Positions 17,604-37,160 of a DNA stretch of 64,000 nt are shown here, one piece after another. The notes under the pieces are model-generated. The model had not been told where the DNA came from, searched no databases, and saw only the letters and a program-made list of their open reading frames with translations. Origin of the DNA: Nonomuraea gerenzanensis (GTDB lineage Bacteria > Actinomycetota > Actinomycetes > Streptosporangiales > Streptosporangiaceae); contig NZ_CP084058.1 in the NCBI RefSeq assembly GCF_020215645.1, positions 8,494,001-8,558,000 on the forward strand. The letters run 5' to 3'. Position 1 is the first letter of the stretch; every line of letters begins with the position of its first letter. The translations under genes were made by a program, and so were the position numbers.

Positions 17604-18193
17604 GCCGCCGCCCATGCGTCGACCTTCTCGCTGATCATGTGCAGCATCAGTGTGTGGATCTCCTGGATGCGCGGGGTCTCTGAGCTGGGGGCGAGGAGGA
17701 GGTGGTCGGCGTGCTTGGCGGCGGCCCCGCCGTCGCCACCGCCGAACAGGACCGTCACCGCGCCGTTGGACTGGGCGACCTCTAGTGCGCTGACCACGTT
17801 GGGCGAGTTGCCGCTCGTGGTGAACGCGGCCACGACGTCGCCGGGCCGGGCGAGCGCCCTGACTTGACGGGCGAAGACGTCATCATAGGCGTAGTCATTG
17901 GCTATGCAGGTCATAACGGTCGCATCGGTGGTGAGCGTGACCGTGGGCAGGGGGCGGCGGTCGCGCTTGTAGTGGCCGATCAGCTCGCCGGTGAGGTGCT
18001 GGGCGTCGGCGGCACTGCCGCCGTTGCCCATCGTGTAGAGGGTGCCGCCGCGGGTGAAGGTGTCGATGAGCAGGTCGGCGGCTGCCTCCACGGCGGGCAG
18101 CAGCGCCGTCATGCCGCGGGCGGCGGCCAGGTGACCTGCCACGTGCTCGGCGAGGACGTCAGTGATCGGGGGCATCGGGGGAAGATCAGGCAT
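17600..18193 (-). CDS. SIS-domain phosphosugar isomerase (GmhA-like)
   Basis: The 197-residue protein has a SIS domain with TMGNGGSAADAQHLTGELIG and FTTSGNSPNVVSALEVA, both phosphosugar-binding loops of D-sedoheptulose-7-phosphate isomerase-like proteins. In this operon a role in isomerising a sugar phosphate from the ROK kinase is more likely than heptose synthesis, but the substrate is open. ATG 18193 has AGGAAAG about 8 bp upstream; the longer frame runs through a repeat array and is not used. It is translationally coupled to the mannosidase. Confidence 0.87.
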   Translation of the reverse strand: MPDLPPMPPITDVLAEHVAGHLAAARGMTALLPAVEAAADLLIDTFTRGGTLYTMGNGGSAADAQHLTGELIGHYKRDRRPLPTVTLTTDATVMTCIANDYAYDDVFARQVRALARPGDVVAAFTTSGNSPNVVSALEVAQSNGAVTVLFGGGDGGAAAKHADHLLLAPSSETPRIQEIHTLMLHMISEKVDAWAAA

Positions 18194-18209: not shown

Positions 18210-18325
18210 GGCGAGTTCAGGCGTCGGTGCCGGTGACCGCACCGGGCTCCGGCGATGGCGTCAGGCGCCGGCGCAGACGGTGGCACAGACGGTGGCACAG
18301 ACGGTGGCGCAGACGGTGGCGGTCA
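18210..18325. repeat. 12-bp tandem repeats and duplicated stop context after the ROK gene
   Basis: Four 12-bp units (GCRCAGACGGTG) run from 18271 to 18318, ending just before the ROK stop (TCA 18323-18325). A second copy of the ROK end sequence (TCAGGC...CCGGTGAC) occurs at about 18210-18231. The array occupies the 129-bp gap between the ROK and SIS genes. Confidence 0.75.
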
Positions 18326-19288
18326 GGCCTTGGCTCCGGTGACGAGGTCGTGGGCGACGGCGCCGGCGCCGACCACGCAGACGCCGTCGCCGAGCTTGGC
18401 CAGCTCGAAGCGGGCGGCGCGGGCGGCGGGCGGCATGGCGTCCCTGGCGACCGCCGCGGCGACGGGGTCGAGGAGCCGGGCGCCGGATCGGGTGACGCCG
18501 CCGCCGAGGACGACGAGCTCGGGCTCGAACGCGTTCACCAGGTCGGTGAGCGCCGTTCCCAGTGCCCATGTGGTTTCGTCCCACACTTCGACGGCGAGCG
18601 CGTCACCCGCCTCGGCCGCGCGGGAGACGTCCTCCGCCCTGGGCTGGGCGAGTGCGGACAGCGAGGAGGGCCGGCCGGCGGCCAGCGCCTCGCGGGCGCG
18701 CTCGGCGATGGAGGTGCCCGACGCGTACGCCTCCAGGCAGCCCCGGCGCCCGCACGAGCACAACCGCCCGCCCGGACGCACCATGACGTGCCCCAGCTCA
18801 CCGCCGTTGCCGGCCGCGCCGCGGTGCAGCCGGCCGCCGATGACGGAGCCGCCGCCGACGCCCGTGGAGATGGTGAGGTAGAGCATCGTGCTGGTGCCGC
18901 GCCCCGCGCCGTACCGGAACTCGCCCAGCGCGGCGGCCGTGGCATCGTTCTCAAGCGCGGCCGGTACGCCGAACGCCTCCGTGGCCAGCGCGCAGATCGG
19001 GACGTCGATCCAGCCGGGCAGGTGCGGCGGGCACTGCAGGACGCCGGTCGTGGTGTCCAGCGGGCCGCCGCACGAGATGCCGACAGCGGCCACCTCCGGC
19101 ACGCCGGCCTCCGCGATCGCCTTCCTGCCCAGGTCGAACAGCCTGGTCAGGACGTGCCGCGGCCCCTCCTCCCTGCGGGTGGGGGTGACCTGCCACCCGT
19201 GGATCAGGCCATCGCCTGTGACCACGCCCGCGGCGAGTTTCGTGCCGCCGATGTCCAGGGACAGGACGGCGGGAAGATCGTGCTCCAT
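18323..19288 (-). CDS. ROK-family sugar kinase
   Basis: The 321-residue protein has the phosphate-binding motif DIGGTK (residues 12-17), catalytic-region ALENDATAAALGE, and the ROK zinc motif CSCGRRGCLEAY near residue 178. No N-terminal helix-turn-helix is present, so it is an enzyme rather than an NagC-type repressor. Likely substrates are glucose, mannose, GlcNAc or ManNAc; context with GH38 and GH84 favours mannose or an amino sugar. ATG 19288 has GGAGG 4-5 bp upstream. It is the first gene of a LacI-operator-controlled operon. Confidence 0.9.
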   Translation of the reverse strand: MEHDLPAVLSLDIGGTKLAAGVVTGDGLIHGWQVTPTRREEGPRHVLTRLFDLGRKAIAEAGVPEVAAVGISCGGPLDTTTGVLQCPPHLPGWIDVPICALATEAFGVPAALENDATAAALGEFRYGAGRGTSTMLYLTISTGVGGGSVIGGRLHRGAAGNGGELGHVMVRPGGRLCSCGRRGCLEAYASGTSIAERAREALAAGRPSSLSALAQPRAEDVSRAAEAGDALAVEVWDETTWALGTALTDLVNAFEPELVVLGGGVTRSGARLLDPVAAAVARDAMPPAARAARFELAKLGDGVCVVGAGAVAHDLVTGAKA

Positions 19289-19323: not shown

Positions 19324-19341
19324 TGTGACATCGTTCCCACA
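19324..19341. promoter_or_regulatory. LacI-type operator of the ROK operon
   Basis: On the minus strand this reads TGTGGGAACGATGTCACA, matching TGTGNNAACGTTNNCACA at 13 of 14 defined positions. It begins 5 bp downstream of the -10 box and covers the expected transcription start, a classical repressing position. The same motif occurs at 22298 and 31782. Confidence 0.75.
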
Positions 19342-19345
19342 CGGG

Positions 19346-19375
19346 ATCCTAGGGCGACCTTTCCCCGTGGGTCAA
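19346..19375 (-). promoter_or_regulatory. Promoter of the ROK-SIS-GH38 operon
   Basis: Minus-strand TTGACC (19370-19375) and TAGGAT (19346-19351) are spaced by 18 bp. The predicted start near 19339 falls inside the operator palindrome. Confidence 0.7.
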
Positions 19376-19395
19376 CGCACCGGACGGGAGAAATG

Positions 19396-20439
19396 TCAGA
19401 GGGCGGGGGGCGGCGCGGTCGACCCGCGCTCGACGAGCCGCACGTTGAGCACGGTCGTGACGGAGTCGGACTCGGGCCGCTCGATGCGCTCGTCCAGCCT
19501 GCGTACGGCGGTCGCGCCCAGGTTGAAGGTGTCCTGCGAGACCGCGCTGACCGTGGGCGAGACCATGCTCATCCACGGCGCGTCGTCGAAGGCGACGAGG
19601 CTGATGTCGCCGGGCACGCGCAGGCCCAGCTCGCCGATCGCCCGCCAGACACCTTCGGCGAGCACGTTGTTGGCGGCGAACACGGCTGTGGGACGATCCG
19701 GGCCACGCAGCATGTCGAGCGCCCGGCGGCGCGAGTCGGCGACGTCCCAGCCGGAGGAGACGACGAGGTCGGGATCCACCTTGATGTCGCCGGCGGTCAG
19801 CGCCTCCAGGTAGCCCTGGTAGCGCTCGTAACCGGTGGTCCAGTCGGTCTCGTCGATGAACAGCGCGATCCTGCGGTGGCCGAGCCCGACGAGGTGGGCG
19901 GTGGCGGTGCGGGCGCCGACGCGGTTGCCGACGACCACGCCGTCGGTCGAGCCGGCCGCGAACTGCCGGTCCACCTCGACGACGGGGATGCCGTGGCCGG
20001 CGAGGTAGGTGGAGACGGCCGAGGAGTTGGGCGTCACGACCACCCCGGCCACGCGCAGCGCGACCAGCGCCTCGGCGGCCTCGCTCTCGGCCTGGGCCGA
20101 CAGGCTCGTGTCGGCCAGCACCATGGTGTAGCCGCGCTCGCGGGCCTCCCTGCTGGCGCCGGCGGCCAGCTCCGCGTAGAACGGGTTGCGCAGGTCGCTC
20201 ACCAGGACCCCGACCGACCGGCTGACCTGCTGCTTGAGCGTGCGGGCCATGACGTCGGGCACGTAGCCCAGCTCGGCCGCGGCACGCAGGACCCGCTCGC
20301 GCACGTCGCTGGCGGCGTAGCCGCGCCCGGTGAGCGCCCGGGAGACGGTGGAGCGGGAGACGCCGGCGGCCTCGGCCACGTCCTTGATGGTGGGGCGGCG
20401 GGAACGGCTGAGGGGGGTGCTGCGCCGTTCTATGGTCAT
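19396..20439 (-). CDS. LacI-family transcriptional repressor
   Basis: The 347-residue protein has the N-terminal LacI helix-turn-helix (IKDVAEAAGVSRSTVSRAL, residues ~17-36), hinge region and a periplasmic-binding-protein-like effector domain (VGVLVSDLRNPFYAEL, VAFDDAPWMSM). It is translationally coupled (ATGA) to the upstream metallo-hydrolase gene, so it shares that gene's operator-containing promoter and is probably autoregulated. It sits centrally among three copies of the TGTGNNAACGTTNNCACA palindrome, the strongest evidence for what it binds. The effector is probably a degradation intermediate of the imported glycan. Confidence 0.92.
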   Translation of the reverse strand: MTIERRSTPLSRSRRPTIKDVAEAAGVSRSTVSRALTGRGYAASDVRERVLRAAAELGYVPDVMARTLKQQVSRSVGVLVSDLRNPFYAELAAGASREARERGYTMVLADTSLSAQAESEAAEALVALRVAGVVVTPNSSAVSTYLAGHGIPVVEVDRQFAAGSTDGVVVGNRVGARTATAHLVGLGHRRIALFIDETDWTTGYERYQGYLEALTAGDIKVDPDLVVSSGWDVADSRRRALDMLRGPDRPTAVFAANNVLAEGVWRAIGELGLRVPGDISLVAFDDAPWMSMVSPTVSAVSQDTFNLGATAVRRLDERIERPESDSVTTVLNVRLVERGSTAPPPAL

Positions 20440-22277
20440 CGAATCCCTTCCCCGACCACGTCGACGAGTGCCTCGGCGTGCTGTCCGAGACGCAGATCGC
20501 CGATGGTCACGTCGACTGCGAGGCGAACGCGGCGTCGTGGCACGACGTCGGCGCCGAGACGGAGATGCACCTGCTCCATACCCCCTCCGGGCAGCCTAAG
20601 CGTCAGGGATCCCTGCTCGCGCCGCCAGCCGGGCGGCACCACCGGCTCGACGGTGGCCACGACCTTGTCCGGCCACGGGTTGCGCACGGTGGCGGTCAGC
20701 ACGACCTCGCCGCCCGCGGGGACGCTCGTATAGTACGGCGTCAGCCGGCACAGCACGCCGTCCGCCCCGAGGTCGATCCGGTCCAGCGGGAGCAGGTCGT
20801 GGTGCAGCGCGACCAGCTCCTCGCCTCGTTCGGTCAGCATGTGCAGGTAGTCGTCGTCCACCCAGCGGGGTCGCCAGTGGCCGCTGACCATGAGATCGGG
20901 CCGCAGGCGCCGGTAGAGCGCGGCGCTCCGGCGGTAGTCCTCGATGCGGAACCTATTCTTGTACTGAAAATTCAGAATCTCCTGGCGTTCGCCGGGAATC
21001 CCCATCCCGTCCTGCTGGTCGCCGGTCACCAGCACCCGGTGCCCGTCCACCTCGAACTCGTACGCCGCCGCGAACAGCGTGTGCCCCGGCAGGTCGTGCA
21101 CCGTGATCTCGTACTCCCGCCAGCGCACCGTCTCCCCCAGCCCGAGCACGCGGTCGGCCGGGATCGGGTCGAACCACTGGCACGGCAGGTCGTGGTGGAG
21201 CGGCGTGGCCAGGATGGGCGCCATGTGGGAAGGTGCCCAGATCGCGGTGCCCTCGACGTCGCGCAGCAGCGGCATGCCCGCCACGTGGTCGTCGTGGTAG
21301 TGGGTGGGCAGGGCGACCTCGACGGTGGTGACGCCGTGGTGCTCGCGCAGCGCGGGCAGGGAGGCCAGCCAGGGGCGCCGGGCCTCGCGGGCGGTGCTCT
21401 TGACCAGCCCCGTGCACATGTCGTAGCCGAAGTCGAAGACCATGGCCGCGCCCGACTCCGACAGCAGCACGTAGCTGTGGGACTGGCTGCTCCTGTTCAT
21501 CAGCAGGTGCGGTGTGACCTGCACGAACGGGTTGTTCAGCAGGCCGCGCACGTCCCAGGGGTGCGGGCGGCGGAAGTCCACGTAGCGCTGCATCGCGGCC
21601 GACAGCCGGGTCAGGGCGTCGCCGGGGTCGATCATGGGCTCGCCGTGCGAGGGCAGCAGCACGTCGAGCTCCTCCCGCTGGAGCAGCTCCGCGCTGAGGA
21701 CGACCATGGCGGGGCCCTCGTTCTCGGTGTACGACCACTGGGTGGCGGCCAGGGACCACACCTTGCCGGGGGCGTAGATCAGGTCACCGGTGAAGGCGGC
21801 GCGGCCCACCACGTACGTGACGGAGCCCGGCGTGTGACCCGGGGTGGGCAGGACGCGCACGTCCACCCCGCCGTATTCGGCCGTCCGATACTCCGGCACC
21901 ACGTCCGTGATCGCGACCGGCTCCAGCAGCGAGAAGCGGTCGTCGCGCAGGTCGTAGTCGTTGAGCAGCTGACGCCCCGCCCACATCTCGCCGACCTTCT
22001 CGAACAGGTCGCGCTCGACGGGCGGCACGTGGATCTCCACGCCCGCCTCGGCCGCCCGGTGCAGCCCCTGCACCTGGTCGCGGTGGTGGTGGGTGACGAG
22101 GACATGGGTGAGGCGGTCGAGGCCCAGCTCGCCGAGCAGGTCGAGGACCCGCCCTGAACCGAAGTCGACGGCGATCCCGGTGCGCTCCTCACCCTCGCGG
22201 ACGGGAGCCTTGATGACGTAGACGTGGCAGGTGTCCTCCACGCGGAGCACCCCGGGCACAACTTCGGTTACATCCAT
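20436..22277 (-). CDS. Tandem two-domain metallo-beta-lactamase-fold protein with C-terminal beta-sandwich
   Basis: The 613-residue protein contains two successive MBL-fold domains. Domain 1 has THHHRDQ near residue 60, PTPGHTPGS, FTGDLIY and PSHGEP; the last metal histidine of HxHxDH is replaced by Gln. Domain 2 has the intact THYHDDHVAG near 324, LPGHTLFA, TGDQQDG and SGHWRP. Residues ~510-613 look like a NEW3-type beta-sandwich with VPPGW, a module often attached to glycosidases. It is cytoplasmic. The substrate is unknown; a hydrolase for a sugar ester, lactone or phosphate is possible. ATG 22277 is used. It is coupled to LacI and opposes the GH84 gene across a shared operator. Confidence 0.85.
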   Translation of the reverse strand: MDVTEVVPGVLRVEDTCHVYVIKAPVREGEERTGIAVDFGSGRVLDLLGELGLDRLTHVLVTHHHRDQVQGLHRAAEAGVEIHVPPVERDLFEKVGEMWAGRQLLNDYDLRDDRFSLLEPVAITDVVPEYRTAEYGGVDVRVLPTPGHTPGSVTYVVGRAAFTGDLIYAPGKVWSLAATQWSYTENEGPAMVVLSAELLQREELDVLLPSHGEPMIDPGDALTRLSAAMQRYVDFRRPHPWDVRGLLNNPFVQVTPHLLMNRSSQSHSYVLLSESGAAMVFDFGYDMCTGLVKSTAREARRPWLASLPALREHHGVTTVEVALPTHYHDDHVAGMPLLRDVEGTAIWAPSHMAPILATPLHHDLPCQWFDPIPADRVLGLGETVRWREYEITVHDLPGHTLFAAAYEFEVDGHRVLVTGDQQDGMGIPGERQEILNFQYKNRFRIEDYRRSAALYRRLRPDLMVSGHWRPRWVDDDYLHMLTERGEELVALHHDLLPLDRIDLGADGVLCRLTPYYTSVPAGGEVVLTATVRNPWPDKVVATVEPVVPPGWRREQGSLTLRLPGGGMEQVHLRLGADVVPRRRVRLAVDVTIGDLRLGQHAEALVDVVGEGIR

Positions 22278-22291
22278 ACCCACGAGGCAGG

Positions 22292-22315
22292 ATCCTATCC
22301 GGTATCGTTCCCACA
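22292..22315. promoter_or_regulatory. Shared operator and -10 box between the metallo-hydrolase and GH84 genes
   Basis: On the minus strand TAGGAT (22292-22297) serves as a -10 box, directly preceded by TGTGGGAACGATACCGGA (22298-22315), which matches the operator consensus at 11 of 14 positions. The same site ends one base before the GH84 ATG at 22316, so GH84 is probably leaderless and repressed by the same protein. Confidence 0.65.
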
Positions 22316-23950
22316 ATGGATGTCCTGGAGTGGATTGTTCCCTGTCCGAAAAAGGCCACTTTCGGTATTTCGCACGTCGAGCTGTGTGACGCTGGAGTCC
22401 AGGGCGACACCGCTTCCGAGAGTGCCGTCACCGAGCTGCGCCACGCGCTCGGCTCCCCCGCCTGCGCCACGCCGCTCGTCCAGGTGCGCGTCGACGCCGG
22501 TGCCGGGCTGCCGCCGGAGGGGTACACGCTGACGGCGGGCGACGGCCGGGTCTCGATCGTGGGAGCCGATCCTGCCGGGGCGTTCTACGGGGCGCAGACC
22601 CTGCTCGCCATGGCCGGGGCGCCTTGTGCCGAGCACGCGGTGTGCGTGCCGGAGTCCGACGTGCGCGACTGGCCCGACCTGCCGCTCCGGGGCACGATCG
22701 AGGGCTTCTACGGCACGCCGTGGACCCACGCCGACCGCCTGGACCACCTGCGGTTCTCCGCCAGGCACAAGCTCAACGCCTACGTGTACGCGCCCAAGGA
22801 CGACCCGTTCCACCGGGAGCGGTGGCGGGAGCCGTACCCGGAGGAGGAGCTGGCGCGGCTGGCCGAGCTGGTCGGGCAGGCCGCGGCGCGGCACGTGCGC
22901 TTCGTCTTCGCGCTCAGCCCCGGCCTGTCGATGGTCTACAGCGACCCGGCCGACCGGGCGGCGCTGCGGGCCAAGGCGGAGCAGGTGTGGCGGGCCGGCG
23001 TCAGGGAGTACGCGCTGCTGTTCGACGACATCCCGCCCGAGCTGAGCCACCTGCCCGACCGGGAGGCGTACGGCACGGCGGAGGGGGCGAGCGCGAGCGC
23101 CCACGCGGCGGTGTGCCGCGACTTCGCCGAGCACTTCCTCGCCCCGCACGGCGCCGACCGGCCGCTGACCATGGTGCCCACCGACTACGCGGGCACCGCG
23201 CGCACCGCCTACCGCGACCGGCTGGCGGCGGAGCTGCCCGCCGACGTGCTGGTGTGGTGGACGGGCTCCGACGTGGTGGTGGGCGCGATCTCCGCCTACG
23301 ACATGACGGCCGCGGCGGCCTCCTACGGGCACCGTGTGGCGCTGTGGGACAACTTTCCCGTCAACGACTTCGACTTCTCCAGGGTGTTCCTCGGGCCGCT
23401 GGTCGGGCGGGCCACGGAGCTGGAGGACGTGCCGATCGAGGGCATCACGGCCAACCCGATGGTGGAGGCGGCGGCCTCGCGGATCGCGCTGACGACGGTG
23501 GCCGACTACGCCTGGCACCTGGCGGCCTACGACCCGGCGCGCGCGCACGAGCGGGCGATCCGGCTGCTGCCCGGGGCCGCGGAGCTGCTGCCGCTGGTGG
23601 AGGCGTGCTCGGCGTGGCCGCCCGGCGACGACCAGAGCCCGGCGCTGACCGCGCTGTGCGCCGCCGCGCTGGAGGGCGGGCCCTACGAGGGGCTGCGCGC
23701 CGAGCTGACGCGGCTGGCGGAGCTGCCTTCTGACGTGCCCGGGCCGATCGCCAGGGAGCTGGCCCGGTGGGTGTCGGCGGCCAGGGACATGGGCGCGGCC
23801 GGGCTGGCCGCGCTCGACCTGCTGGCCGGGGCGGGCGGCCTGGCGGCGGCCGAGGAGGCGCTGGCCCGCGCCGAGGCGCACGAGGCGAACGTGCTGCGCA
23901 AGGTGATCCCGCCGTTCGCCCGACAGGTGCTCGAACGCGTCACCGCCTGA
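22316..23950 (+). CDS. GH84-family beta-N-acetylglucosaminidase
   Basis: The 544-residue protein matches GH84 in order: an N-terminal alpha/beta domain (GAFYGAQTLL), then the TIM-barrel start RGTIEGFYGTPWTHADRLD, KLNAYVYAPKDDP, the catalytic pair D237-D238 in LFDDIP, and WDNFPVND. The paired aspartates perform substrate-assisted hydrolysis of terminal beta-GlcNAc. There is no signal peptide or extra binding module, so it is intracellular, unlike many secreted GH84 enzymes. The gene overlaps the shared LacI operator at its 5' end and ends at a perfect hairpin terminator. Confidence 0.92.
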   Translation: MDVLEWIVPCPKKATFGISHVELCDAGVQGDTASESAVTELRHALGSPACATPLVQVRVDAGAGLPPEGYTLTAGDGRVSIVGADPAGAFYGAQTLLAMAGAPCAEHAVCVPESDVRDWPDLPLRGTIEGFYGTPWTHADRLDHLRFSARHKLNAYVYAPKDDPFHRERWREPYPEEELARLAELVGQAAARHVRFVFALSPGLSMVYSDPADRAALRAKAEQVWRAGVREYALLFDDIPPELSHLPDREAYGTAEGASASAHAAVCRDFAEHFLAPHGADRPLTMVPTDYAGTARTAYRDRLAAELPADVLVWWTGSDVVVGAISAYDMTAAAASYGHRVALWDNFPVNDFDFSRVFLGPLVGRATELEDVPIEGITANPMVEAAASRIALTTVADYAWHLAAYDPARAHERAIRLLPGAAELLPLVEACSAWPPGDDQSPALTALCAAALEGGPYEGLRAELTRLAELPSDVPGPIARELARWVSAARDMGAAGLAALDLLAGAGGLAAAEEALARAEAHEANVLRKVIPPFARQVLERVTA

Positions 23951-23955
23951 GACGC

Positions 23956-24003
23956 GGAACGGCCCGTGGCGGTGAGGCGCACCTCACCGCCACGGGCCGT
24001 TCC
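23956..24003. terminator. Bidirectional terminator, perfect 21-bp stem
   Basis: GGAACGGCCCGTGGCGGTGAG (23956-23976) is perfectly complementary to 23983-24003, with a 6-base loop. It sits between the convergent ends of the GH84 gene and the FAD oxidoreductase gene. Confidence 0.92.
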
Positions 24004-24015
24004 ATGGCACGCGGG

Positions 24016-25518
24016 TCAGAGTGACAGCACCTGACCGGCCGCCCGCAGCTCCTCCTGCAGCGCCGTCACGTCCACGTCCTGCACCGCCTTCCCGCTCCCC
24101 GCGGCCCGGGCGGCGGCCAGCCCGGCGGCGTGCCCGAGCATCTGGTACTGCACCTCCATCCGGATGGAGGAGAACGCCACGTGCGAGGCCGACACGCACA
24201 CCGGCACGAGGAGGTTCGCGCATTCCTCCCGCCGCGGCACGATCGCCCCGTACGGGATCGGGTACGGCGCCACCCCCACCGACAGGTACCCCTCGGTCAC
24301 CACCATGGGCACCGGGTCGGGATGCTCGTACACCTCCCGCCAGGTCCGCTGCACCTCACGGATGTCCAGGTGGTAGGACCCCATCGCGACCACGTCGGGC
24401 CGCACCCCTCCCCGCACCAGGTCGTGCTCGGTCAGATGCGTCTGCCCCAGCATCCGCCGCGCCTCGCGCACGTAGAGCTGGTGCGGCAGGTGCCCGGTGT
24501 CGGCGAACTCGTCGGCGGGCAGCCCCCACCGCGACAGCTCGGCCCGCACGGCGGCGGGCACCTCGGGGTCGTGGGAGAGGAAGTGGAGCAGGTCCTGGGC
24601 GTGGTGCAGGTGGTGCAGGCGGATGCGCTCGCGTTCGTCGGCGCCGGCGTCGGGGTAGGCCCAGGCCGAGCGGTCGAGCACGCTGAGCGAGAACGGCCCC
24701 AGCGAGTTGCCGTCGCACTTGCCGTGGGGCAGGTTCGGCTCCAGCCCGACCAGGCGTCCGGCCCGGGGCTCGACGCCCTGCTCGCGCCAGTGGCGGAAGA
24801 GCCGCCGCCCCAGCTCCCAGTGCTCCTCGTCGTAGCCGGGCCGCCGCTCGAACGGGATCCGGTCGGGCGCGGTGCTCATGCAGACGCGGTAGCCGTACGA
24901 CATCACGCCGCCGTCACCCGCGCCCACCTCGGCCATCGGCCCGTCGGCGACCTGCGGCAGCAGCGTGCCGTCAGCGCGGAACGGCGAGATCCACGGCGGG
25001 AAGTTGTGCATCCCGGGCACCACCTCGCGCCGCCCGGCGAACCTCTCCCCGTGCAGCGAGCGGTCCTCGCGGCCCACCCGGTACGACACCCCGGCGGCGG
25101 CCAGCAGGTCACCCTCGTAGCTCGCGTCCACGAAGACCCCCGCGGCGTGCTCCCCCACCGAGCCGATCCGGTCCCCGGAGGTGACCACCGCGCCCAGCGG
25201 CGCGTCGAACACCACCTCCACGCCCGCCCGGTCCAGCCAGGACAGGAAGATCTCCTCGGCGACATGCGGCTCGGGGCCCGCGTAGTGGCCGGGCGCCACC
25301 CCGTAGGCGTCGGCGACCGCCTGGCGGAACTCCGTGGCCATGCCGCCCAGCACGCGGGCGTCGCCGACGTCGGTGTAACCCAGCCCGCCGGAGGTCATGC
25401 CGCCGACGTGCCGGCCGGGTTCGAGCAGCACGGTGTCCAGGCCGCGCCGGGCGGCGGCCACCGCGGCGCACACGCCGGCCGAGGTCGCGCCGTACACGAC
25501 CACCTCGGCCTGCCTCAT
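24016..25518 (-). CDS. FAD-dependent oxidoreductase (FAD_oxidored type) in the glycan operon
   Basis: The 500-residue protein starts with a dinucleotide-binding fold (VVYGATSAGVCAAVAAARRG) and GRHVGGMTSGGLGYTD, typical of the FAD_oxidored family found in many carbohydrate loci. The FAD-binding region recurs at the C terminus (AFSSIRMEVQYQMLGHAAG). There is no signal sequence. The reaction is unknown; oxidation of a sugar hydroxyl is a reasonable inference from its place as last gene of an ABC/glycosidase operon. Its ATG overlaps the stop of the preceding glycosidase-like gene (ATGA). Confidence 0.85.
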   Translation of the reverse strand: MRQAEVVVYGATSAGVCAAVAAARRGLDTVLLEPGRHVGGMTSGGLGYTDVGDARVLGGMATEFRQAVADAYGVAPGHYAGPEPHVAEEIFLSWLDRAGVEVVFDAPLGAVVTSGDRIGSVGEHAAGVFVDASYEGDLLAAAGVSYRVGREDRSLHGERFAGRREVVPGMHNFPPWISPFRADGTLLPQVADGPMAEVGAGDGGVMSYGYRVCMSTAPDRIPFERRPGYDEEHWELGRRLFRHWREQGVEPRAGRLVGLEPNLPHGKCDGNSLGPFSLSVLDRSAWAYPDAGADERERIRLHHLHHAQDLLHFLSHDPEVPAAVRAELSRWGLPADEFADTGHLPHQLYVREARRMLGQTHLTEHDLVRGGVRPDVVAMGSYHLDIREVQRTWREVYEHPDPVPMVVTEGYLSVGVAPYPIPYGAIVPRREECANLLVPVCVSASHVAFSSIRMEVQYQMLGHAAGLAAARAAGSGKAVQDVDVTALQEELRAAGQVLSL

Positions 25519-27224
25519 CGCAGCCCCCACCAGGCCGCGATCTGCTCCAGGTCCGCGCCGCCGATCGGCTCGCCGGTGTTGTCGATGCGCTCGACGTAGT
25601 ACAGGGCGGGCACCCCCAGCTCGGGCTGGGCCCGGGCGTAGGCGAGCCAGTCCGCCTTGCTGGGCATCGGCCACTGGTCGGTGTCGATCAGGTGGTGCGG
25701 CAGGGCGTGGGTGGCCACCGCGTGGCGGTAGCGGAGCTGGTCCACGGCGGGCACGAGGTCGCCGCGGGCGTCGTACTCCAGCACGTCGTTGAGCCTGATC
25801 ATGTCGCTGACGTCGGCGAAGGCCGGGTGCGGGGTGTGGGTGATCATGAGGGCGTCGGGTTTGACCTGCTTGGCGGCGTCGTACATGGTGGCGAGCAGCT
25901 CGTGCAGGAGGGCGATGCCCCAGGTCGAGCCGTACGTCTTCAGGTGCGAGCCGCTGGGGGACCACTGCGTGAAGTCGATCTTGAAGCCGTCGGCGCCGAG
26001 GTCGCCCAGCAGCCGCCGCATGATGGCCCGCACGCGCAGCCGGTAGGCGGGGTTCGACGGGTCGGCGGCCACGGGGCGGCCGCCGGCGTCCGTCACGCAC
26101 TCCTCGGGCGGCAGCCCGTCGGCCGACCAGGCGCGCCACCACAGCAGCACGCGCTGGCCGCGCGCGTGCCGGTCGGCGATCCACTCGCGCAGCCCCGGCC
26201 ACTTGGCCTCGTCGGGCTCGCAGTCGCCGTAGGTGAGCTGCCAGCGGTCGTCGATGACGATCGTGCCGGGCACGATGCCGTGCTCCTCCAGCGTGCCCAG
26301 CCACTCGTCGTACAGCTCGCGCCGCGACAGCTCCACCGGGGAGCCGCCGTCGGCCCTGGCACACTGGGCGCCCCAGCCGCAGAAGATCGGCCGGCTCCAC
26401 CAGCCGGCCGGCTCGGGGACCCGCGACGGGGCCAGGCCGTGCTCGACGAGGTCGGCGCGGTGCTGAGTGATCGCCTCCCAGGGCGAGGAGGCGACGCGGA
26501 ACACCACGGCGGGCGAGGTCCACGAGCCGCGCACCTCGGTGTGGCACTCGTAGTCGAAGCGCAGCAGCGCGCCGCCGTCCAGCGGCTCGTACGTCAGCTC
26601 GGTGAAGGTCAGGTCGGCGATCCCGGCGCGCACCGACGCGCTCAGCCAGTCGCCGTCCGGGACGGCGGTGGCGCCGTCCGGCTCGGCCTTGCAGAAGGCC
26701 AGCACCAGCGGCGGCGGGGAGAAGACGGCGTGCAGCCGGCCGGGCGAGGCGTCGCCGACGACGGTCAGCGCGACCGGCGCGGACACCGGCCGCACCACCC
26801 GCACGGGGTGCGCGGGCGTGGGGCTGAAGACGCCGCGCGCGTGCACTGCGGAGCGGAACGTGCCGGCGGCGCGGGTGTTGAGCACGGCCCTGCCGCCCAT
26901 CAGCGTCACGTCACCGAGCACGCCGTCGCCCTCGACCCGCACCTCCAGCGCGATCGTCTCGGGGGTGCAGGTCAGGCGGACCGTCTTGGCCTGCCACTCG
27001 GTGGTGCGCTGCGGGAAGTCGAAGATCGCCACGTCGCCGCGCTCGACGAGCACGGGCGGCAGCGTCTCGTACGTCTCGTCACGCCCGCCCCTGGTGTTCA
27101 CCGAGGCCAGCAGGTTGAGCGTCATCCAGCCGACCAGCTCGGCGCTGGGGTCGGTGCGCGAGACGGTCAGATGGTAGTGGCCGCTGTCCAGGTGGTAGGC
27201 CGTGTCAGTGGTGGTGATCCGCAT
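25515..27224 (-). CDS. TIM-barrel glycoside hydrolase, clan-D-like (alpha-galactosidase/GH31-36 type)
   Basis: The 569-residue protein has an N-terminal beta-sandwich (about residues 1-270) and a TIM barrel with IVIDDRWQ near 325 and DGFKIDF near 416; the latter aspartate is the expected nucleophile by analogy with GH31/GH36 enzymes. An acid/base candidate is in LNDVLEYDARGD. There is no signal peptide. The specificity cannot be read and the family assignment is only to clan level. It follows GH1 with a 3-bp gap and is translationally coupled to the FAD oxidoreductase, which suggests sequential action. Confidence 0.8.
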   Translation of the reverse strand: MRITTTDTAYHLDSGHYHLTVSRTDPSAELVGWMTLNLLASVNTRGGRDETYETLPPVLVERGDVAIFDFPQRTTEWQAKTVRLTCTPETIALEVRVEGDGVLGDVTLMGGRAVLNTRAAGTFRSAVHARGVFSPTPAHPVRVVRPVSAPVALTVVGDASPGRLHAVFSPPPLVLAFCKAEPDGATAVPDGDWLSASVRAGIADLTFTELTYEPLDGGALLRFDYECHTEVRGSWTSPAVVFRVASSPWEAITQHRADLVEHGLAPSRVPEPAGWWSRPIFCGWGAQCARADGGSPVELSRRELYDEWLGTLEEHGIVPGTIVIDDRWQLTYGDCEPDEAKWPGLREWIADRHARGQRVLLWWRAWSADGLPPEECVTDAGGRPVAADPSNPAYRLRVRAIMRRLLGDLGADGFKIDFTQWSPSGSHLKTYGSTWGIALLHELLATMYDAAKQVKPDALMITHTPHPAFADVSDMIRLNDVLEYDARGDLVPAVDQLRYRHAVATHALPHHLIDTDQWPMPSKADWLAYARAQPELGVPALYYVERIDNTGEPIGGADLEQIAAWWGLR

Positions 27225-27227
27225 GGG

Positions 27228-28574
27228 TTAGCCGTAAGCCTCGATCCTGGGCAGGGCGGGGGCCGTGCCGCCCCCGGCGATGAGCCGGGCGTAGTAGCGC
27301 CCGGAGTCCTTGACGGTGCGGGCTCCGGTGGCGTAGTCGACGTGGACGAGCCCGAACCTGGGCCGGTAGCCCAGCGCCCACTCGAAGTTGTCCATGAGCG
27401 ACCAGTGCAGGTAGCCGCGCACGTCGGCGCCCGCGTCGAGAGCCTCTTGCACAGCCGCCACGTGGTCGCGCAGGTAGGCGATCCTGCGGGTGTCGTGCAC
27501 CCGGCCGTCGTGGGCGGGCGTGTCGCCGAAGACGCCGCCGTTCTCGGTGATCATCAGCGGGGTGCCGGGGAAGCGCCCGCTCAGCCCGGCGAGCAGGTCG
27601 CGCAGCGCGCCGGGGTTGATCTCCCAGCCCTCGTCGGTCCTGGCCACGTCGCCGCTGGGGCCGACCACCTTCCAGGGGAACGGGTCCGGCGGCGCGGCGG
27701 CCATGACCCGGCGCGTGTAGTAGTTGACGCCGAGGAAGTCACTGCGCCCGCCGATCGCGGCCTCGTCGCCGTCCTGGATGAAGTCCAGGCCGTGGCCGAG
27801 CGCCCGTTCCCAGTGTTCGCGCATGTCGGCGGGGTAGCCGTCGCCGAGCAGCGGGTCGAGGTACCAGCGGTTGACGTAGCCGTCGGAGCCCCGGGCCGCC
27901 GCCCGGTCGGCCTGGCTGCCGGTGGCCGGGTCGCAGGGGAACAGGCTCAGCGCGCACCCGGCCCTGGTGCCGGCGTGCGCGTGCAGCACGTCGGCCGCCG
28001 CGCCGTGGCCGAGCAGCACGTGGTGCCCGGCCTTGACGGCGGTGCCCAGGTCGGCGACGCCGGGGGCGTGCAGGCCGAGCTGGTAGCCGAGCAATGCGAT
28101 GATCCACGGCTCGTTCTGGGTGATCCACCAGGTCACACGGTCGGCCAGCCGGTCGGCCACCGCCTGGGCGTAGGCGGTGAAAGCGTTTACGGACGAGCGC
28201 TCGGCCCAGGTCAGGCTCGACGGCATGTCCCAGTGGTTGAGTGTGAGCACCGGCTCGACGCCGGCCTCCAGCAGCGCGTCGGTGAAACGCTCGTAGTGGT
28301 CGAGCGCCTCGGGGTCGGCGTGCGCGCCGTCCGGCATCACCCGCGACCAGCCGGTCGAGAAGCGGTAGGCGCTCAGCCCCAGCTCCTTGACCAGCTCCAC
28401 GTCCTCGCGCCAGCGCAGGAACGAGTCGCAGGCCCGCGAGCCGTCGCCGCCGCCCTCGACGGCGCCGGGACGGCGGCAGAACACCTCCCACACCGACTCG
28501 CCGCGGCCGTGGTGCCCCTCGATCTGGTACGCGGAGGTGCCCGCGCCCCACAGGAACCCGTCGGGGAAGCTCAT
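27228..28574 (-). CDS. GH1 family beta-glycosidase
   Basis: The 448-residue protein is a full-length GH1 enzyme: FLWGAGTSAYQIEG at the start, acid/base Glu in TQNEPWI near residue 154, and nucleophile Glu in ITENGG near residue 344, then HWSLMDNFEWALGY. It hydrolyses beta-glucosides, galactosides or mannosides. Cytoplasmic. It overlaps permease 2 by ATGA (start 28574). With GH38 and GH84 in the same regulon a beta-mannosidase role is possible but not shown. Confidence 0.93.
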   Translation of the reverse strand: MSFPDGFLWGAGTSAYQIEGHHGRGESVWEVFCRRPGAVEGGGDGSRACDSFLRWREDVELVKELGLSAYRFSTGWSRVMPDGAHADPEALDHYERFTDALLEAGVEPVLTLNHWDMPSSLTWAERSSVNAFTAYAQAVADRLADRVTWWITQNEPWIIALLGYQLGLHAPGVADLGTAVKAGHHVLLGHGAAADVLHAHAGTRAGCALSLFPCDPATGSQADRAAARGSDGYVNRWYLDPLLGDGYPADMREHWERALGHGLDFIQDGDEAAIGGRSDFLGVNYYTRRVMAAAPPDPFPWKVVGPSGDVARTDEGWEINPGALRDLLAGLSGRFPGTPLMITENGGVFGDTPAHDGRVHDTRRIAYLRDHVAAVQEALDAGADVRGYLHWSLMDNFEWALGYRPRFGLVHVDYATGARTVKDSGRYYARLIAGGGTAPALPRIEAYG

Positions 28575-29398
28575 CCCTTGCTCCCGGTCGTGGCGATGCC
28601 CTTGACGAAGTGCTTCTGGCCGAGGAAGAACAGGATGATCATCGGGATCGTGGTGATCACGCTCGCCGTCATGACGATCTCCCAGTGCCACTCGCCGCCG
28701 AACCCGAACTGGTCGAGCAGCGCCTTCAGCCCGCGCGGCACGGTGAACATGCTGGAGTCCCGCAGGTAGATGAGGGGCCGCATGAGGTCCGTCCACGCCG
28801 CCTGGAACTCGAACAGCAGCGTCACCACGACCGCCGGCTTGCACAGCGGCAGGGCCATCCTGGTGAAGATCGTCCAGTTGTTCGCACCGTCGATCTTCGC
28901 CGCCTCGAACGGCTCGCGCGGCAGGCCCATGAAGAACTGCCGCAGCAGGAAGATGTAGAACGCGCTGCCGAACAGGTTCTGCGCCCACAGCGGGGTCAGG
29001 GTGCCGACCATGCCCAAGGAGTTCCAGATCAGGAACACCGGCACCATGGTGACCGCGCCCGGCAGCATCATCGTGGCCAGCAGCAGGCCGAACAGCGCGT
29101 TCCTGCCGGGGAAGCGGAAGTAGGCGAAGCCCCACGCCACCATCGCGCTGGTGATCGTCACGGCCGTCGCGGCCAGCACCGTCACCAGCAGCGTGTTGAA
29201 CATCCACAGCGCCAGCGGCGCCTCCTGCCACACCTGGATGTAGTTGTCGAAGGTGAACGTCTCGGGCAGGATCCGGTGGTCGAACACCTCGCTGCGCGGC
29301 TTGAAGGAGGCGCTGAGCAGCCAGATGAACGGGTAGATGAACGCGACGGCGAACGCGCTCAGCGCCGCCCAGATCAGGATCTTGCGCAGGCGCCTCAC
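28571..29398 (-). CDS. Sugar ABC transporter permease (MalG-type), system 1
   Basis: The 275-residue inner-membrane permease has about six TM helices and the EAA loop as EAAKIDGANNWTIFTRMALP. GTG 29398 overlaps the preceding permease stop as GTGA. No ATPase gene is present; actinomycetes commonly use a shared MsiK-type ATPase encoded elsewhere. Confidence 0.92.
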   Translation of the reverse strand: MRRLRKILIWAALSAFAVAFIYPFIWLLSASFKPRSEVFDHRILPETFTFDNYIQVWQEAPLALWMFNTLLVTVLAATAVTITSAMVAWGFAYFRFPGRNALFGLLLATMMLPGAVTMVPVFLIWNSLGMVGTLTPLWAQNLFGSAFYIFLLRQFFMGLPREPFEAAKIDGANNWTIFTRMALPLCKPAVVVTLLFEFQAAWTDLMRPLIYLRDSSMFTVPRGLKALLDQFGFGGEWHWEIVMTASVITTIPMIILFFLGQKHFVKGIATTGSKG

Positions 29399-30315
29399 GG
29401 GTTGCCCCCTTCGTAGTGCACGAACCGCCTGGTGACCAGGAACTGCACACCGGTGATCGCCATGATCACGATGAACAGCAGCCAGGCCAGCGCGGAGGCG
29501 TACCCCATGTGCAGGAACTCGAAGGCCTGCTGGAACAGGTAGATCGCGTAGAACAGGGCGGCGTCGTTGCTGTAGGTGGTGTTGCCCGCGCCGAAGAAGG
29601 CGGTGTACGCCTCGGTGAAGGACTGTAGGGCGTTGATGCTGTCCACGATGAACAGGAAGAACAGCGTGGGACTGATCATCGGCACGGTGATCCGCAACGT
29701 GCGCCGCCACCAGCCGGCCCCGTCCACCAGGGCGGAGTCGTACAGCTCCTGGGGGACGCCGCGCAGCGCCGCCAGAATGATGACCACCGACGCGCCGACC
29801 GTCCACAGGCTCATCAGCACCAGGCCCGGCTTGATCCAGGCCGGGTCGGTGGTCCAGGCGGGGCCGTCGATGCCGAAGATGCCGAGGAAGCCGTTGATCA
29901 GGCCGTTCTGGCCGTTGAACAGCATCAGCAGCAGGATGCCGACCGCGACGGGCGGCGTCATCTTGGGCAGGAAGAAGGCCGTGCGGAAGAAGCCGGTGGC
30001 CCGGGTGGCGCTGTTGAGCAGCAGCGCCAGGCCGAGGGAGACGACGAGCTGGATGGGCACGGACATCACGGTGAACAGGAACGTGTTGCGCAGCGCCAGC
30101 CCGACCTTCGGATCCTCGAAGAGGGTCACGTAGTTGTCGAAGCCGATGAACGACGGGTCGTTGATCACGTCGTAGTCGGTCAGCGACAGGTAGGCGCTGT
30201 TGATCACGGGCCAGGCGGTGAAGATCAGGAAACCGATGATCCAGGGGCTGATGAACAGCAGCGCGGCCCTGGTCTCGATGAAGCGCATGGTTCTCATGCG
30301 CGGTGCTCGGGCCAT
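29395..30315 (-). CDS. Sugar ABC transporter permease (MalF-type), system 1
   Basis: The 306-residue permease has six TM segments and the EAA-like loop ELYDSALVDGAGWWRRTLRITVP. It forms the membrane channel with the MalG-type partner. The ATG at 30315 lies one base past the binding-protein stop (TGAGATG); ATG 30297 is an alternative start. Confidence 0.92.
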   Translation of the reverse strand: MARAPRMRTMRFIETRAALLFISPWIIGFLIFTAWPVINSAYLSLTDYDVINDPSFIGFDNYVTLFEDPKVGLALRNTFLFTVMSVPIQLVVSLGLALLLNSATRATGFFRTAFFLPKMTPPVAVGILLLMLFNGQNGLINGFLGIFGIDGPAWTTDPAWIKPGLVLMSLWTVGASVVIILAALRGVPQELYDSALVDGAGWWRRTLRITVPMISPTLFFLFIVDSINALQSFTEAYTAFFGAGNTTYSNDAALFYAIYLFQQAFEFLHMGYASALAWLLFIVIMAITGVQFLVTRRFVHYEGGNP

Positions 30316-30316
30316 C

Positions 30317-31708
30317 TCAGTTCGTACGCTTCGTCCAGTCGGCCCATGCCTTGTCGAGTGCCGCCTGGGCGTCCTGCTGGGCCTTGTCGAGCGCGGCCTG
30401 CGGCTCGTCCTGGCCGTTGAGCACCCGGTTCACCGCGCCCTGCCAGGCGTCCTTGAACTCCTTGTCGGCCGGGTTGGCCGGCAGGCTGAAGGTGTTCTGG
30501 TTGGCCTCGTAGACGGCCTTGACGCCGGAGTCCCAGGGCTCGCCGCCGGAGGTGAGCATCTTCTGGATCTCCTCGTCGGCCTTGACGTTGCCGGTGAGGA
30601 TGCCGGTGAACGGCTTGCCGTCGGCCTTGCGCTTGTCCACGCGGGCCTGGGCGGCGGCCTTCCACGACTCCACCAGCGTCATCGTCTTGGCGAAGCGGCA
30701 GGCGGCGCCGGGGTTCTTGGAGCCCTTGGGGATGGCCCACGACGAGCCGGAGGAGTAGGCCAGCGGCTTGCCCTCCGGGGTGCGGAAGGTGTCGAAGGCC
30801 ATGGGGGCCTTGGGCGAGACGTCGTTGAGCACGTTGACGTACCACTGCTCCATCGGCATGGCGCCCAGCGCGTCCTCGGCGAACTGGTTGCCCTTGCCGA
30901 AGAAGTCGGCCGAGTCGCGCACGGCCTTGACCTTGGCGAAGCCGCCCTGCGCGTCGTAGACGGCGACCGCGAACTGCAGCGCCTTGACCACCTCGGGGCT
31001 GTTGAGCTGGGCGGTCTTCCCGTCGGCCGACAGCAGGTCGGCGCCGAGGGACTTGGCCCACAGCGGCAGGAACTCCGGCAGCTTGCTGTCGAAGCCGATC
31101 ACCTGGAGCTTGCCGCCGGGCGCCTTGACCAGCTTCTTGGTCGCCGCGGTGACCTTGTCCCAGTCGGAGCCGTTGACGTCCTCGATCGTCAGGCCGGCCT
31201 GCTTGAGCAGGTCGGCGTTGGCCATGGTGATCTGGACCTGGTTGAACTCGGGGATCGCGTAGACCTCGTTGCCGAACGTCACCTGGCTGAGCGCGTTCTT
31301 GTTGTACATCGAGGTGTCGATCTGCTCCCCCTGGACGCACGACGTGAGGGGGATGATCGCGCCCCGCGAGGCGAAGGTGCCGATCTGGTCGCGGTTGGCG
31401 TAGATGATGTCCGGCGGGTCGCCGGCCGCCACCGCCGACAGGAACTGCTGGATGTCGAGGTCGCCCTCGATCAGCTTCACGTCCGCGCCCTTGAGCGACT
31501 TCTTGGCCAACTCGACGCGGGTCTCGCCGATCTCGTCGGTGGCGCCGAAGCCCATGACCGAGATGGTGCCCTGGTAGGAGGCGCCGGGGTTGAACTGGCC
31601 TGCCGACGGCGCGGGGGCCGCGGCGCCACCGGTGCCCTTGGCACACGAGGTGAGCGCGAGCGCGAGCGACAGCGACAGGACGGACCAGCGGACGAGCGGG
31701 GTTCTCAT
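30317..31708 (-). CDS. Sugar ABC transporter substrate-binding lipoprotein, system 1
   Basis: The 463-residue protein has a lipoprotein signal (MRTPLVRWSVLSLSLALALTSC, lipobox Cys22) and a type-I extracellular solute-binding fold of cluster B (DIQQFLSAVAAGDPPDIIY; SGSSWAIPKGSKNPG). It captures the oligosaccharide outside the membrane. The C terminus is a Lys/Gln/Ala-rich helix with DKAQQDAQAALDKAW repeats. ATG 31708 has GGAGG about 11 bp upstream. It is the first gene of the six-gene operon. Confidence 0.93.
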   Translation of the reverse strand: MRTPLVRWSVLSLSLALALTSCAKGTGGAAAPAPSAGQFNPGASYQGTISVMGFGATDEIGETRVELAKKSLKGADVKLIEGDLDIQQFLSAVAAGDPPDIIYANRDQIGTFASRGAIIPLTSCVQGEQIDTSMYNKNALSQVTFGNEVYAIPEFNQVQITMANADLLKQAGLTIEDVNGSDWDKVTAATKKLVKAPGGKLQVIGFDSKLPEFLPLWAKSLGADLLSADGKTAQLNSPEVVKALQFAVAVYDAQGGFAKVKAVRDSADFFGKGNQFAEDALGAMPMEQWYVNVLNDVSPKAPMAFDTFRTPEGKPLAYSSGSSWAIPKGSKNPGAACRFAKTMTLVESWKAAAQARVDKRKADGKPFTGILTGNVKADEEIQKMLTSGGEPWDSGVKAVYEANQNTFSLPANPADKEFKDAWQGAVNRVLNGQDEPQAALDKAQQDAQAALDKAWADWTKRTN

Positions 31709-31781
31709 TGGGGGTTTCGCCTCCACACTGAACAAGCGGGGCATCAGGCATGCTGATGACGGCCACGTGGCGCCAGGCCAG

Positions 31782-31799
31782 TGTGGCAACGTTCACACA
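31782..31799. promoter_or_regulatory. LacI-type operator of ABC operon 1
   Basis: TGTGGCAACGTTCACACA matches TGTGNNAACGTTNNCACA at all 14 defined positions and starts at the predicted transcription start. This is the best copy of three in the region. Confidence 0.8.
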
Positions 31800-31805
31800 T
31801 CTGAG

Positions 31806-31835
31806 AACGTACCCATACCGCTGAAATCCCGTCAA
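31806..31835 (-). promoter_or_regulatory. Promoter of ABC operon 1
   Basis: Minus-strand TTGACG (31830-31835) and TACGTT (31806-31811) are spaced 18 bp. The start would be near 31799, the first base of the operator. The gap 31709-32044 therefore holds this promoter, the operator and the symporter terminator; no gene is seen in it. Confidence 0.7.
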
Positions 31836-33664: not shown

Positions 33665-33990
33665 TGAGTCTTCTCCTCCACCTCGTGGCGCAGCTTGTCG
33701 GCGATCGGGTCGAGCTTGCGCTCGGCGTGCCTGGCGTACGTCCACGCGATGAGGAAGGTGGACACGAACTGCAGCAGGCCGAGGACCAGGCCGACGTTGA
33801 TCTCGCCGAGCAGCTTGATCCCCATGAAGCCGCGCGCCCATCCTGACAGCACCACATACAGCAGGTACCACGCGAGGAACGCCACGGTCATGGGGAACGT
33901 CCAGCGGCGGAAGGCCCTTTTCAGCTCCTGGAACTCACTGCTCTCCTGCACTTGTTCATAGACCGACGCGTCATGTTCTCTAGTCGTCAC
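33661..33990 (-). CDS. DUF485 small membrane protein
   Basis: The 109-residue protein has two TM helices (about residues 35-55 and 70-92) and a charged N terminus, as DUF485 proteins that accompany acetate-type symporters. GTG 33990 is preceded by GGAGG 5 bp upstream; the longer frame to 34035 lacks such a site. It is translationally coupled to the symporter. Confidence 0.88.
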   Translation of the reverse strand: MTTREHDASVYEQVQESSEFQELKRAFRRWTFPMTVAFLAWYLLYVVLSGWARGFMGIKLLGEINVGLVLGLLQFVSTFLIAWTYARHAERKLDPIADKLRHEVEEKTQ

Positions 33991-34100
33991 GAGACCTCCA
34001 CTGTGATGCGGATCACGCCCAACGTAAGAGCGCAACCTACCCGTCGTGGAGATCCGTAGGTGGGTTGTTCGGTGAGGCGGTGCCGTCCGGCGCTTAGTTG

Positions 34101-34160
34101 GGGATGGCCTGCGGTGAAAGGTCCTTCTAGTGCGATGAGCGGTCGGCCATCCCTTTCACC
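34101..34160. terminator. Possible terminator/attenuator with two competing stems after ABC operon 2
   Basis: GGGATGGCC (34101-34109) can pair with GGCCATCCC (34145-34153), and GGTGAAAGG (34113-34121) with CCTTTCACC (34152-34160). The stems share bases and are mutually exclusive. The second includes the permease stop region. Confidence 0.4.
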
Positions 34161-34980
34161 CCTTTACGGCCCCCGCCGTGAGTCCCTCCACGATGTAGCG
34201 GCGGATCGCGGCGAACAGGACGAGCGTCGGCACCACCGAGACGACCGTGGCCGCCGCCATCGAGCCCCAGTCGATGTCGTACTGGGTGATGAAGGAGTTC
34301 ATCGCCACCGGGATGGTCTTGGCGTCCTCGCTGTCGATGAACGTGATCGCCAGGAACAGCTCGTTCCAGCACTGCACGAAGGCGAAGATGAAGGTGGCCG
34401 CGATCCCCGGCAGCATCACCGGGATCACCACCCTGACCATGGCCGCCAGCCGCGAGGCCCCGTCCACCTGCGCCGCCTCCTCCAGCGCCACCGGCACCCG
34501 CTCGTAGAAGCCGCGCATGATGATCGTCGAGAACGGCACCAGCATCGCCACGTACACCAGCATCAGCCCCGCCAGCCGGTTGAGCAGGTCGAGGTCGGAC
34601 ATCAGCAGGTAGAGCGGGCCGAGCGCGATGAACAGCGGGATCATCTGGGTGACCAGGAAGGCCAGCATCAGCGCGCCCCTGCCGGGGAAGGCGAAGCGGG
34701 CCAGCGTGTAGCCGCCCAGCACGCCGATCACCGTGACGGCCGCGGCGGCGACGAGGGAGACGAGCAGCGAGTTCAGCAGGTAGGTGCCGAAGTCGGCGAA
34801 GGCGAACAACTCGGCGTAGTGCTCGAAGGTGAGGTTCGCCGGCCAGTAGCGCAGCGGCACCGAGAAGATCTCGGGCTTGGGCTTGAGCGAGGTGACGACG
34901 ATCCAGTACAGCGGGAACAGGGTGATCAGCAGCCAGGCGGCCAGCACGACGGCCTTGGCCGCGCTCGCCAGGCGCCTCAT
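34156..34980 (-). CDS. Sugar ABC transporter permease (MalG-type), system 2
   Basis: The 274-residue permease has six TM helices and the EAA loop EEAAQVDGASRLAAMVRVVIP. ATG 34980 overlaps the upstream permease stop (ATGA). It is the last gene of the binding-protein/permease/permease operon; no ATPase or glycosidase accompanies it. Confidence 0.92.
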   Translation of the reverse strand: MRRLASAAKAVVLAAWLLITLFPLYWIVVTSLKPKPEIFSVPLRYWPANLTFEHYAELFAFADFGTYLLNSLLVSLVAAAAVTVIGVLGGYTLARFAFPGRGALMLAFLVTQMIPLFIALGPLYLLMSDLDLLNRLAGLMLVYVAMLVPFSTIIMRGFYERVPVALEEAAQVDGASRLAAMVRVVIPVMLPGIAATFIFAFVQCWNELFLAITFIDSEDAKTIPVAMNSFITQYDIDWGSMAAATVVSVVPTLVLFAAIRRYIVEGLTAGAVKG

Positions 34981-37153: not shown

Positions 37154-37160
37154 AATCACG

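Follow-up and report, generated by a model that had tools for sequence, protein, structure and literature searches.

A 64,000-nucleotide stretch of the Nonomuraea gerenzanensis genome (the window) contains a glycan locus of 13 genes, one of which encodes a LacI-family regulator. Four 18-bp palindromes lie at predicted promoters of this locus, and the local LacI very probably binds these four operators and represses its four transcription units, its own operon included. The sites are confined to the regulator's locus: all four in the own genome, 60 of 61 in 54 genomes of the genus, and 28 of 30 in 17 further genomes. A first-pass annotation, made from the sequence alone, had predicted a single, local, autoregulated LacI regulon here; the confinement of the sites, their co-occurrence with LacI, their promoter positions and the fit of the recognition helix all argue for that prediction.

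Predicted operators and promoters in the window

The palindrome on which the prediction was built, TGTGNNAACGTTNNCACA, is found at 31782, 19324 and 22298 with 0, 1 and 3 mismatches, in agreement with the 14/14, 13/14 and 11/14 matching positions first reported. These three sites stand, but the original list had missed a fourth, at 31800–31817 (3 mismatches), which abuts 31782–31799 and so creates a tandem pair. All four are even palindromes with a central CG, and the best half-site of the 18-bp palindrome is TGTGGGAAC. The 22298 site, with three mismatches to TGTGNNAACGTTNNCACA, is too weak on that pattern and would not stand alone; we accept it as an operator because its right 12 bases are those of the 19324 site (ATCGTTCCCACA) and because it is kept in all 24 genus loci compared below.

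Across the window, TGTGNNAACGTTNNCACA matches six times at up to three mismatches, against 0.70 expected, and none of 100 shuffles reached six. The two matches beyond the operators look like chance and were set aside. The one at 21224 lies inside the metallo-hydrolase coding sequence, lacks the central CG, and reaches 9 bits in only some relatives' matching place; the one at 59557 scores poorly on the matrix (9.8). Genome-wide (Nonomuraea gerenzanensis; 12.07 Mb, 3 contigs), TGTGNNAACGTTNNCACA occurs at up to two mismatches in five places, versus two for a reversed control. Two of the five are in the window, and the remaining three lie inside a phosphotransferase system (PTS) EIIC gene, after a 3-oxoacyl-acyl carrier protein (ACP) synthase III gene, and before a methyltransferase gene. 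These three are unsupported as regulon members, and the degenerate motif TRTGKGWACGWTNYCRNA does not recover them. With one mismatch allowed, TRTGKGWACGWTNYCRNA returned only the four window sites, all within 12.5 kb, and 0 matches in the control. Because TRTGKGWACGWTNYCRNA was built from these four sites, recovering them is by construction, and the absence of others in 12 Mb is the test. The motif is thus not common at unrelated genes, the pattern that the first-pass annotation had named as evidence against itself.

Each site sits at a predicted promoter, as had been proposed (at or beside a -10 box or transcription start), and these positions are kept across the genus loci. The ROK operator (TGTGGGAACGATGTCACA, 19324–19341, minus strand; one mismatch to TGTGNNAACGTTNNCACA) starts 4 bp after the -10 box TAGGAT of the predicted ROK-operon promoter, TTGACC-18-TAGGAT (19346–19375, minus strand), and should therefore cover the transcription start. 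TTGACC-17/18-TAnnnT recurs in 20 of the 21 genus loci with ROK (exception, L069), the operator starting 3–5 bp after the -10; in L073, a locus of another genus, neither ROK promoter box is present. Before the gene for the solute-binding protein (SBP), operator 1 of the tandem (TGTGTGAACGTTGCCACA, 31782–31799, minus strand) lies at or near the predicted transcription start, while operator 2 (TATGGGTACGTTCTCAGA, 31800–31817, minus strand) contains TACGTT, which is also the predicted -10 and follows TTGACG at a distance of 18 bp. The arrangement TTGACG-18-TACGTT is present in 18/18 genus loci. A -10 hexamer inside operator 2 would explain why the operator reads GGGTACG instead of the best half-site GGGAACG.

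The remaining operator (TGTGGGAACGATACCGGA, 22298–22315, minus strand) lies just upstream of a predicted TAnnnT-type -10 of the metallo-hydrolase gene. This is the predicted promoter of LacI's own operon, whose metallo-hydrolase and LacI genes share 4 bp. The same operator ends directly before the plus-strand ATG of the gene for a glycoside hydrolase (GH) of family 84, an arrangement under which the GH84 transcript would have no leader; of our promoter assignments, that for GH84 is the least secure. The three promoters originally described hold as three promoter regions, which become four transcription units when GH84 is counted.

Sites and regulator across genomes

At E ≤ 1e-100, 24 of 54 genus genomes (own included) carry the LacI gene. 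An even sample of 150 family genomes contained it in five (E ≤ 1e-60), four of them from the genus, including the own. We compared 5 to 19 kb around LacI in the other 23 genus genomes, together with two more distant loci. These orthologous loci agree with the first proposal: a site precedes the metallo-hydrolase gene in each of the 24 genus loci, counting that of the window, and ROK in all 21 that have ROK, and the tandem pair precedes SBP in all 18 that have an SBP start. In L066, the start-proximal tandem copy is weaker (13/18 to the consensus used). The aligned operators have a mean identity of 0.98–0.99, against 0.74–0.88 for the whole aligned stretch. Ranked by conservation among the 118 18-bp windows of each upstream stretch, the ROK site came first, the metallo-hydrolase site third, and the SBP pair fourth and tenth; the windows shown as ranking above the sites all overlap an operator.

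An exact search of the 54 genus genomes with the refined motif TGTGKGAACGWTRYCRSA gave 61 matches, with 0 in the control. Sixty of these fall in 21 LacI-bearing genomes, at the locus or on contigs with its SBP part; counted by genome, matches occur in 21/24 genomes with LacI versus 1/30 without.

Judged from the sequence, the sites track promoters, not particular genes. (A gene counts as not found if tblastn at 1e-15 did not detect it in the stretch fetched, and contig ends cut some stretches short.) In the loci without detected ROK (L063, L065, L070), the operator is found in front of SIS or GH38 instead. In L070, SBP was not found and the GH31/36-like gene is separate, preceded by a strong extra site, TGTGTGAACGTACCCACA. 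In L057 the transporter genes were not found, yet the tandem pair (11601–11636) is retained, followed by a GH1 remnant and the GH31/36-like gene; the assembly is a draft and may be faulty here. The loci without detected GH84 (L054, L063, L065, L066, L070) retain the metallo-hydrolase site, which suggests that this site serves metallo-hydrolase/LacI first and GH84 second. In three loci without detected GH84, flavin adenine dinucleotide (FAD) oxidoreductase, GH1 and ROK, the GH31/36-like enzyme and the metallo-hydrolase remain with LacI.

The same organization extends beyond the genus. Of 394 genomes of the class searched for the GH31/36-like enzyme, 18 were positive: three from the genus, 14 from one other family, and one from a third family. 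The 14 point to Jiangellaceae-like organisms (Jiangella, Phytoactinopolyspora). All 14 have the tandem pair, at a spacing of 16 bp versus 18 bp in all 18 genus loci with the pair and in two contig fragments. The metallo-hydrolase site was seen with its gene in 13 of the 14; in the fourteenth, G385, a matching site lies just outside the fetched stretch, which does not cover the gene side. A strong ROK site is present in three Phytoactinopolyspora-like loci and in the single third-family locus. LacI is 64–70% identical in the Jiangellaceae-like genomes where it was seen. An exact pattern built on the Jiangellaceae-like sites gave 30 matches in the 17 further genomes, 28 at the locus (one of them, in G385, placed by contig position; G385 is also the one genome with a control match). 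Another genus of the window's own family is represented by two genomes whose LacI is 50–51% identical; each has two strong sites, near the metallo-hydrolase and SBP starts.

Several observations weigh against the proposed regulon. The co-occurrence of LacI and site (Fisher P = 8e-11) was tested with relatedness ignored, and, as the motif was derived from the window sites, conservation in close relatives is partly shared descent. Three LacI-bearing genomes, G156, G169 and G177, have no exact match, variant sites being present there. The sole off-locus exact match in the 54 genus genomes is in G176 (L143:9303-9320), a 63% complete genome without a LacI match, where it lies 20 bp before an apparently truncated open reading frame (ORF) with a GH2 sugar-binding (N-terminal) domain. 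G069, also of the genus, has a GH31/36-like gene (L164; 80% identical) without a LacI match; the other twelve block genes were not found there, and no site scoring above 7.5 was found in 19.9 kb around that gene. Outside the genus, the ROK site scores a weak 15–17 bits in the four Jiangella-like loci for which the fetched stretch included ROK, and L073 has no site before ROK, which there follows a permease gene. The two off-locus matches in the further genomes are a site after a DUF3147 ORF in G284, without clear target, and a strong site 14 bp before a sulfatase ORF (PF00884) in G484 (L180:2770-2787); this sulfatase is a possible extra regulon member and could hint at sulfated glycans. Finally, a sigma-70 promoter scan found the ROK promoter as its single match, one versus 0.5 expected, and so adds little.

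It is hardly credible, nonetheless, that the palindromes are chance, or conserved promoter sequence with no regulator behind it. At three mismatches, TGTGNNAACGTTNNCACA does yield likely chance matches (two of the six in the window). Against this, 4/4 genome matches fall in 12.5 kb, and the sites persist where genes have been lost and recur in a second family, where the tandem spacing differs.

The LacI protein and a model of regulation

The local LacI (19396–20439, minus strand; 347 aa) matches PF00356 at 60.6 bits and PF13377 at 122.5 bits, both over the cut-off, and combines a helix-turn-helix (HTH) domain with a periplasmic-binding-protein-like effector domain; its relatives in the PDB include PurR, LacI and CcpA. 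All 23 genus orthologues fetched share the recognition helix VSRSTVSR. Twelve Jiangellaceae-like LacIs and one third-family LacI have VSRSTASR, and two distant LacIs have TSPSTASR. Camas et al. 2010 (PMC2978694) pair Arg at helix position 20 with G at NT-6, and hinge Leu-54 with a central CG. The local LacI follows both of these rules, having Arg-20 with G at NT-6 and Leu-54 (within ARTLK) with the central CG.

The window also holds a second LacI-family gene (38330–39322), with helix VSLKTVSR, near a second ATP-binding cassette (ABC) sugar transporter (34156–37120). A search of 33800–39500 for CpG-centred palindromes in which at least 8 of 9 half-site bases match gave none.

One alternative, which we consider improbable, is that the palindrome is bound by another regulator, for example a different LacI-family protein of the genome or the product of this second gene, and that the local LacI is a bystander. 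Candidates are plentiful: the genome has 69 LacI-type domains, of which 67 LacI-type HTH domains (local one included) exceed the cut-off and 65 of these are readable, and the second gene lies only 6.5 kb from the tandem operators. VSRSTVSR, however, belongs to the local LacI alone, occurring in none of the other 64 readable domains (two of the 67 are unreadable); the RS pair appears in one other domain, within a different helix. The 38330–39322 LacI is disfavoured by its VSLKTVSR. Moreover, 29 of the 30 genus genomes without the local LacI have no exact site match, and divergent LacIs with the RS pair accompany the same motif.

In the model that we favour, repression by the local LacI, a LacI dimer would bind the 18-bp CpG-centred palindrome at four operators. 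Repressed units would be, first, SBP, the two permeases, GH1, the GH31/36-like enzyme and the FAD oxidoreductase; second, the metallo-hydrolase and LacI itself; third, the divergent GH84; and fourth, ROK, SIS, GH38 and the GH127-like enzyme. The regulon members listed originally are all retained here, and two are added, the GH31/36-like (25515–27224) and GH127-like (13021–15042) enzymes, which had been omitted and had no Pfam match in the first scans. Since the operators lie on the -10 box or start, LacI binding would block RNA polymerase. LacI would be released from the operators by a glycan fragment taken up by the cell or by the sugar derived from it, and LacI's repression of its own operon would limit the regulator.

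Slightly less probable still than binding by another protein is that LacI acts as an activator or dual regulator at some sites. A regulator bound at the metallo-hydrolase/GH84 site, immediately upstream of the predicted -10, could either assist or impede transcription. Operator placement over -10 boxes and starts nevertheless fits repression, and locally acting LacI proteins that control sugar genes generally repress them.

Gene content, possible substrate and known systems

The block of 13 genes begins with a minus-strand run comprising the sugar ABC SBP (30317–31708), first in its predicted operon, ABC permease 1 (29395–30315), ABC permease 2 (28571–29398), a GH1 beta-glucosidase-like enzyme (27228–28574), a 569-aa enzyme of GH31/GH36 fold type (25515–27224), and a 500-aa FAD-dependent oxidoreductase (24016–25518; PF12831). 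A GH84 beta-N-acetylglucosaminidase-like enzyme (22316–23950) follows on the plus strand, divergent from the genes beyond it. These lie on the minus strand: the metallo-hydrolase, with two metallo-beta-lactamase-fold stretches (20436–22277), as predicted first gene of the LacI operon; LacI, overlapping it; a ROK-family sugar kinase-like protein (18323–19288), first in its own predicted operon; a GmhA-like SIS-domain protein (17600–18193); a GH38 alpha-mannosidase-like enzyme (15039–17585); and a distant GH127-like enzyme (13021–15042; third-position GC (GC3) 0.97), last gene of the ROK operon. GH1, GH84, ROK, SIS and GH38 were assigned from Pfam/NCBIfam, the starts of the last three being set by eye. 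Overlaps of 4 bp occur at five joints (metallo-hydrolase/LacI; GH38/GH127-like, where the GTG start of the latter overlaps the GH38 stop; permease/permease; permease/GH1; and GH31/36-like/FAD), a count that depends on the coordinates used, as several start codons were picked by eye. Between the convergent GH84 and FAD genes lies a 22-bp perfect inverted repeat with a 4-nt loop (23956–24003), possibly a bidirectional transcription end without a T run. By third-position GC, the long ORFs at 25692–28769, 15015–17081 and 13105–15315 (all plus strand) are shadow frames, as is the part of ORF 24016–26547 (minus strand) upstream of 25518.

The SBP's relatives in PDB are mostly sugar-binding proteins. 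No Pfam or NCBIfam match of its own was found for the 569-aa enzyme; two of 20 homologues touch the GH31 model at 0.002, and a profile comparison matches GH31 alpha-galactosidases over ~60 positions (5.9e-7). Its structural model has a predicted local distance difference test (pLDDT) score of 91, and the closest fold is an alpha-galactosaminidase, followed by GH36 and GH31 enzymes. Of 7990 candidates scored, 1561 are homologues at E ≤ 1e-10, and the enzyme may represent a glycosidase family without assignment. For the 13021–15042 protein, PF07944 is weakly matched in 14 of 18 homologues, and 897 of the 7997 candidates scored are homologues at E ≤ 1e-10. Its model is modest (pLDDT 70) and its fold matches weak, several of them to (alpha/alpha)6-type carbohydrate enzymes, so we assign it no activity.

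Our best guess for the substrate, from gene content, is a glycan containing mannose and N-acetylglucosamine (GlcNAc). Loci for the use of N-glycans or mannose/GlcNAc glycans bring GH38, GH84, ROK and ABC import together. The window has all four, and L166, the one Jiangella-type locus examined for extra genes, has in addition a GH2 enzyme between permease and GH1. Unlike such loci, the window adds the GH31/36-like and GH127-like enzymes, the FAD enzyme and the double metallo-hydrolase, and neither an endo-glycosidase nor nagA or nagB was recognised among the 13 block genes with Pfam and NCBIfam. A tentative reading, on which we would not insist, is that the regulon is an undescribed actinobacterial catabolic system for a mannose/GlcNAc glycan, organized around an uncharacterised GH31/GH36-fold family and a two-domain metallo-hydrolase, both kept with LacI in the three loci that lack detected GH84, FAD, GH1 and ROK, with an FAD-dependent oxidative step in other loci and its main operon under a tandem operator pair, one of which is the -10, spaced by 18 or 16 bp according to family. 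No publication on this locus turned up in literature searches on LacI and glycan enzymes, Nonomuraea and actinobacteria, as judged from the search results.

The glycan locus becomes a defined regulon with named predicted operators, so its substrate can be sought via the sugar that releases the repressor. Two enzyme families without clear Pfam assignment gain a testable functional context, and four operators, one of them a predicted -10 box, offer a compact target for how LacI proteins silence actinobacterial promoters.

In the sections of the survey by Ravcheev et al. 2014 (PMC4052901) on which we draw, nearly 90% of LacI regulators are local and 72% autoregulated, a central CG is found in 1173 of 1303 cases, and multiple sites occur in about 20% of operons, with spacing peaks at 13, 22 and 32 bp. 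By these frequencies, the window regulon is of a common kind: it shares the even CpG-centred palindrome, the sugar transport and catabolic genes, autoregulation, the small number of operons, and multiple sites. Its unusual points, relative to the same sections, are modest. The tandem centre spacing of 18 bp (16 bp in the Jiangellaceae-like loci) falls off the survey's peaks, and operator 2 doubles as the predicted -10 hexamer. Set against the TVSR subgroup of Camas et al. 2010 (PMC2978694), the local LacI is alike in its TVSR helix, in pairing Arg-20 with G at NT-6, and in combining Leu-54 with the central CG; its Jiangellaceae-like orthologues have TASR and stand outside that group, yet accompany a very similar operator.

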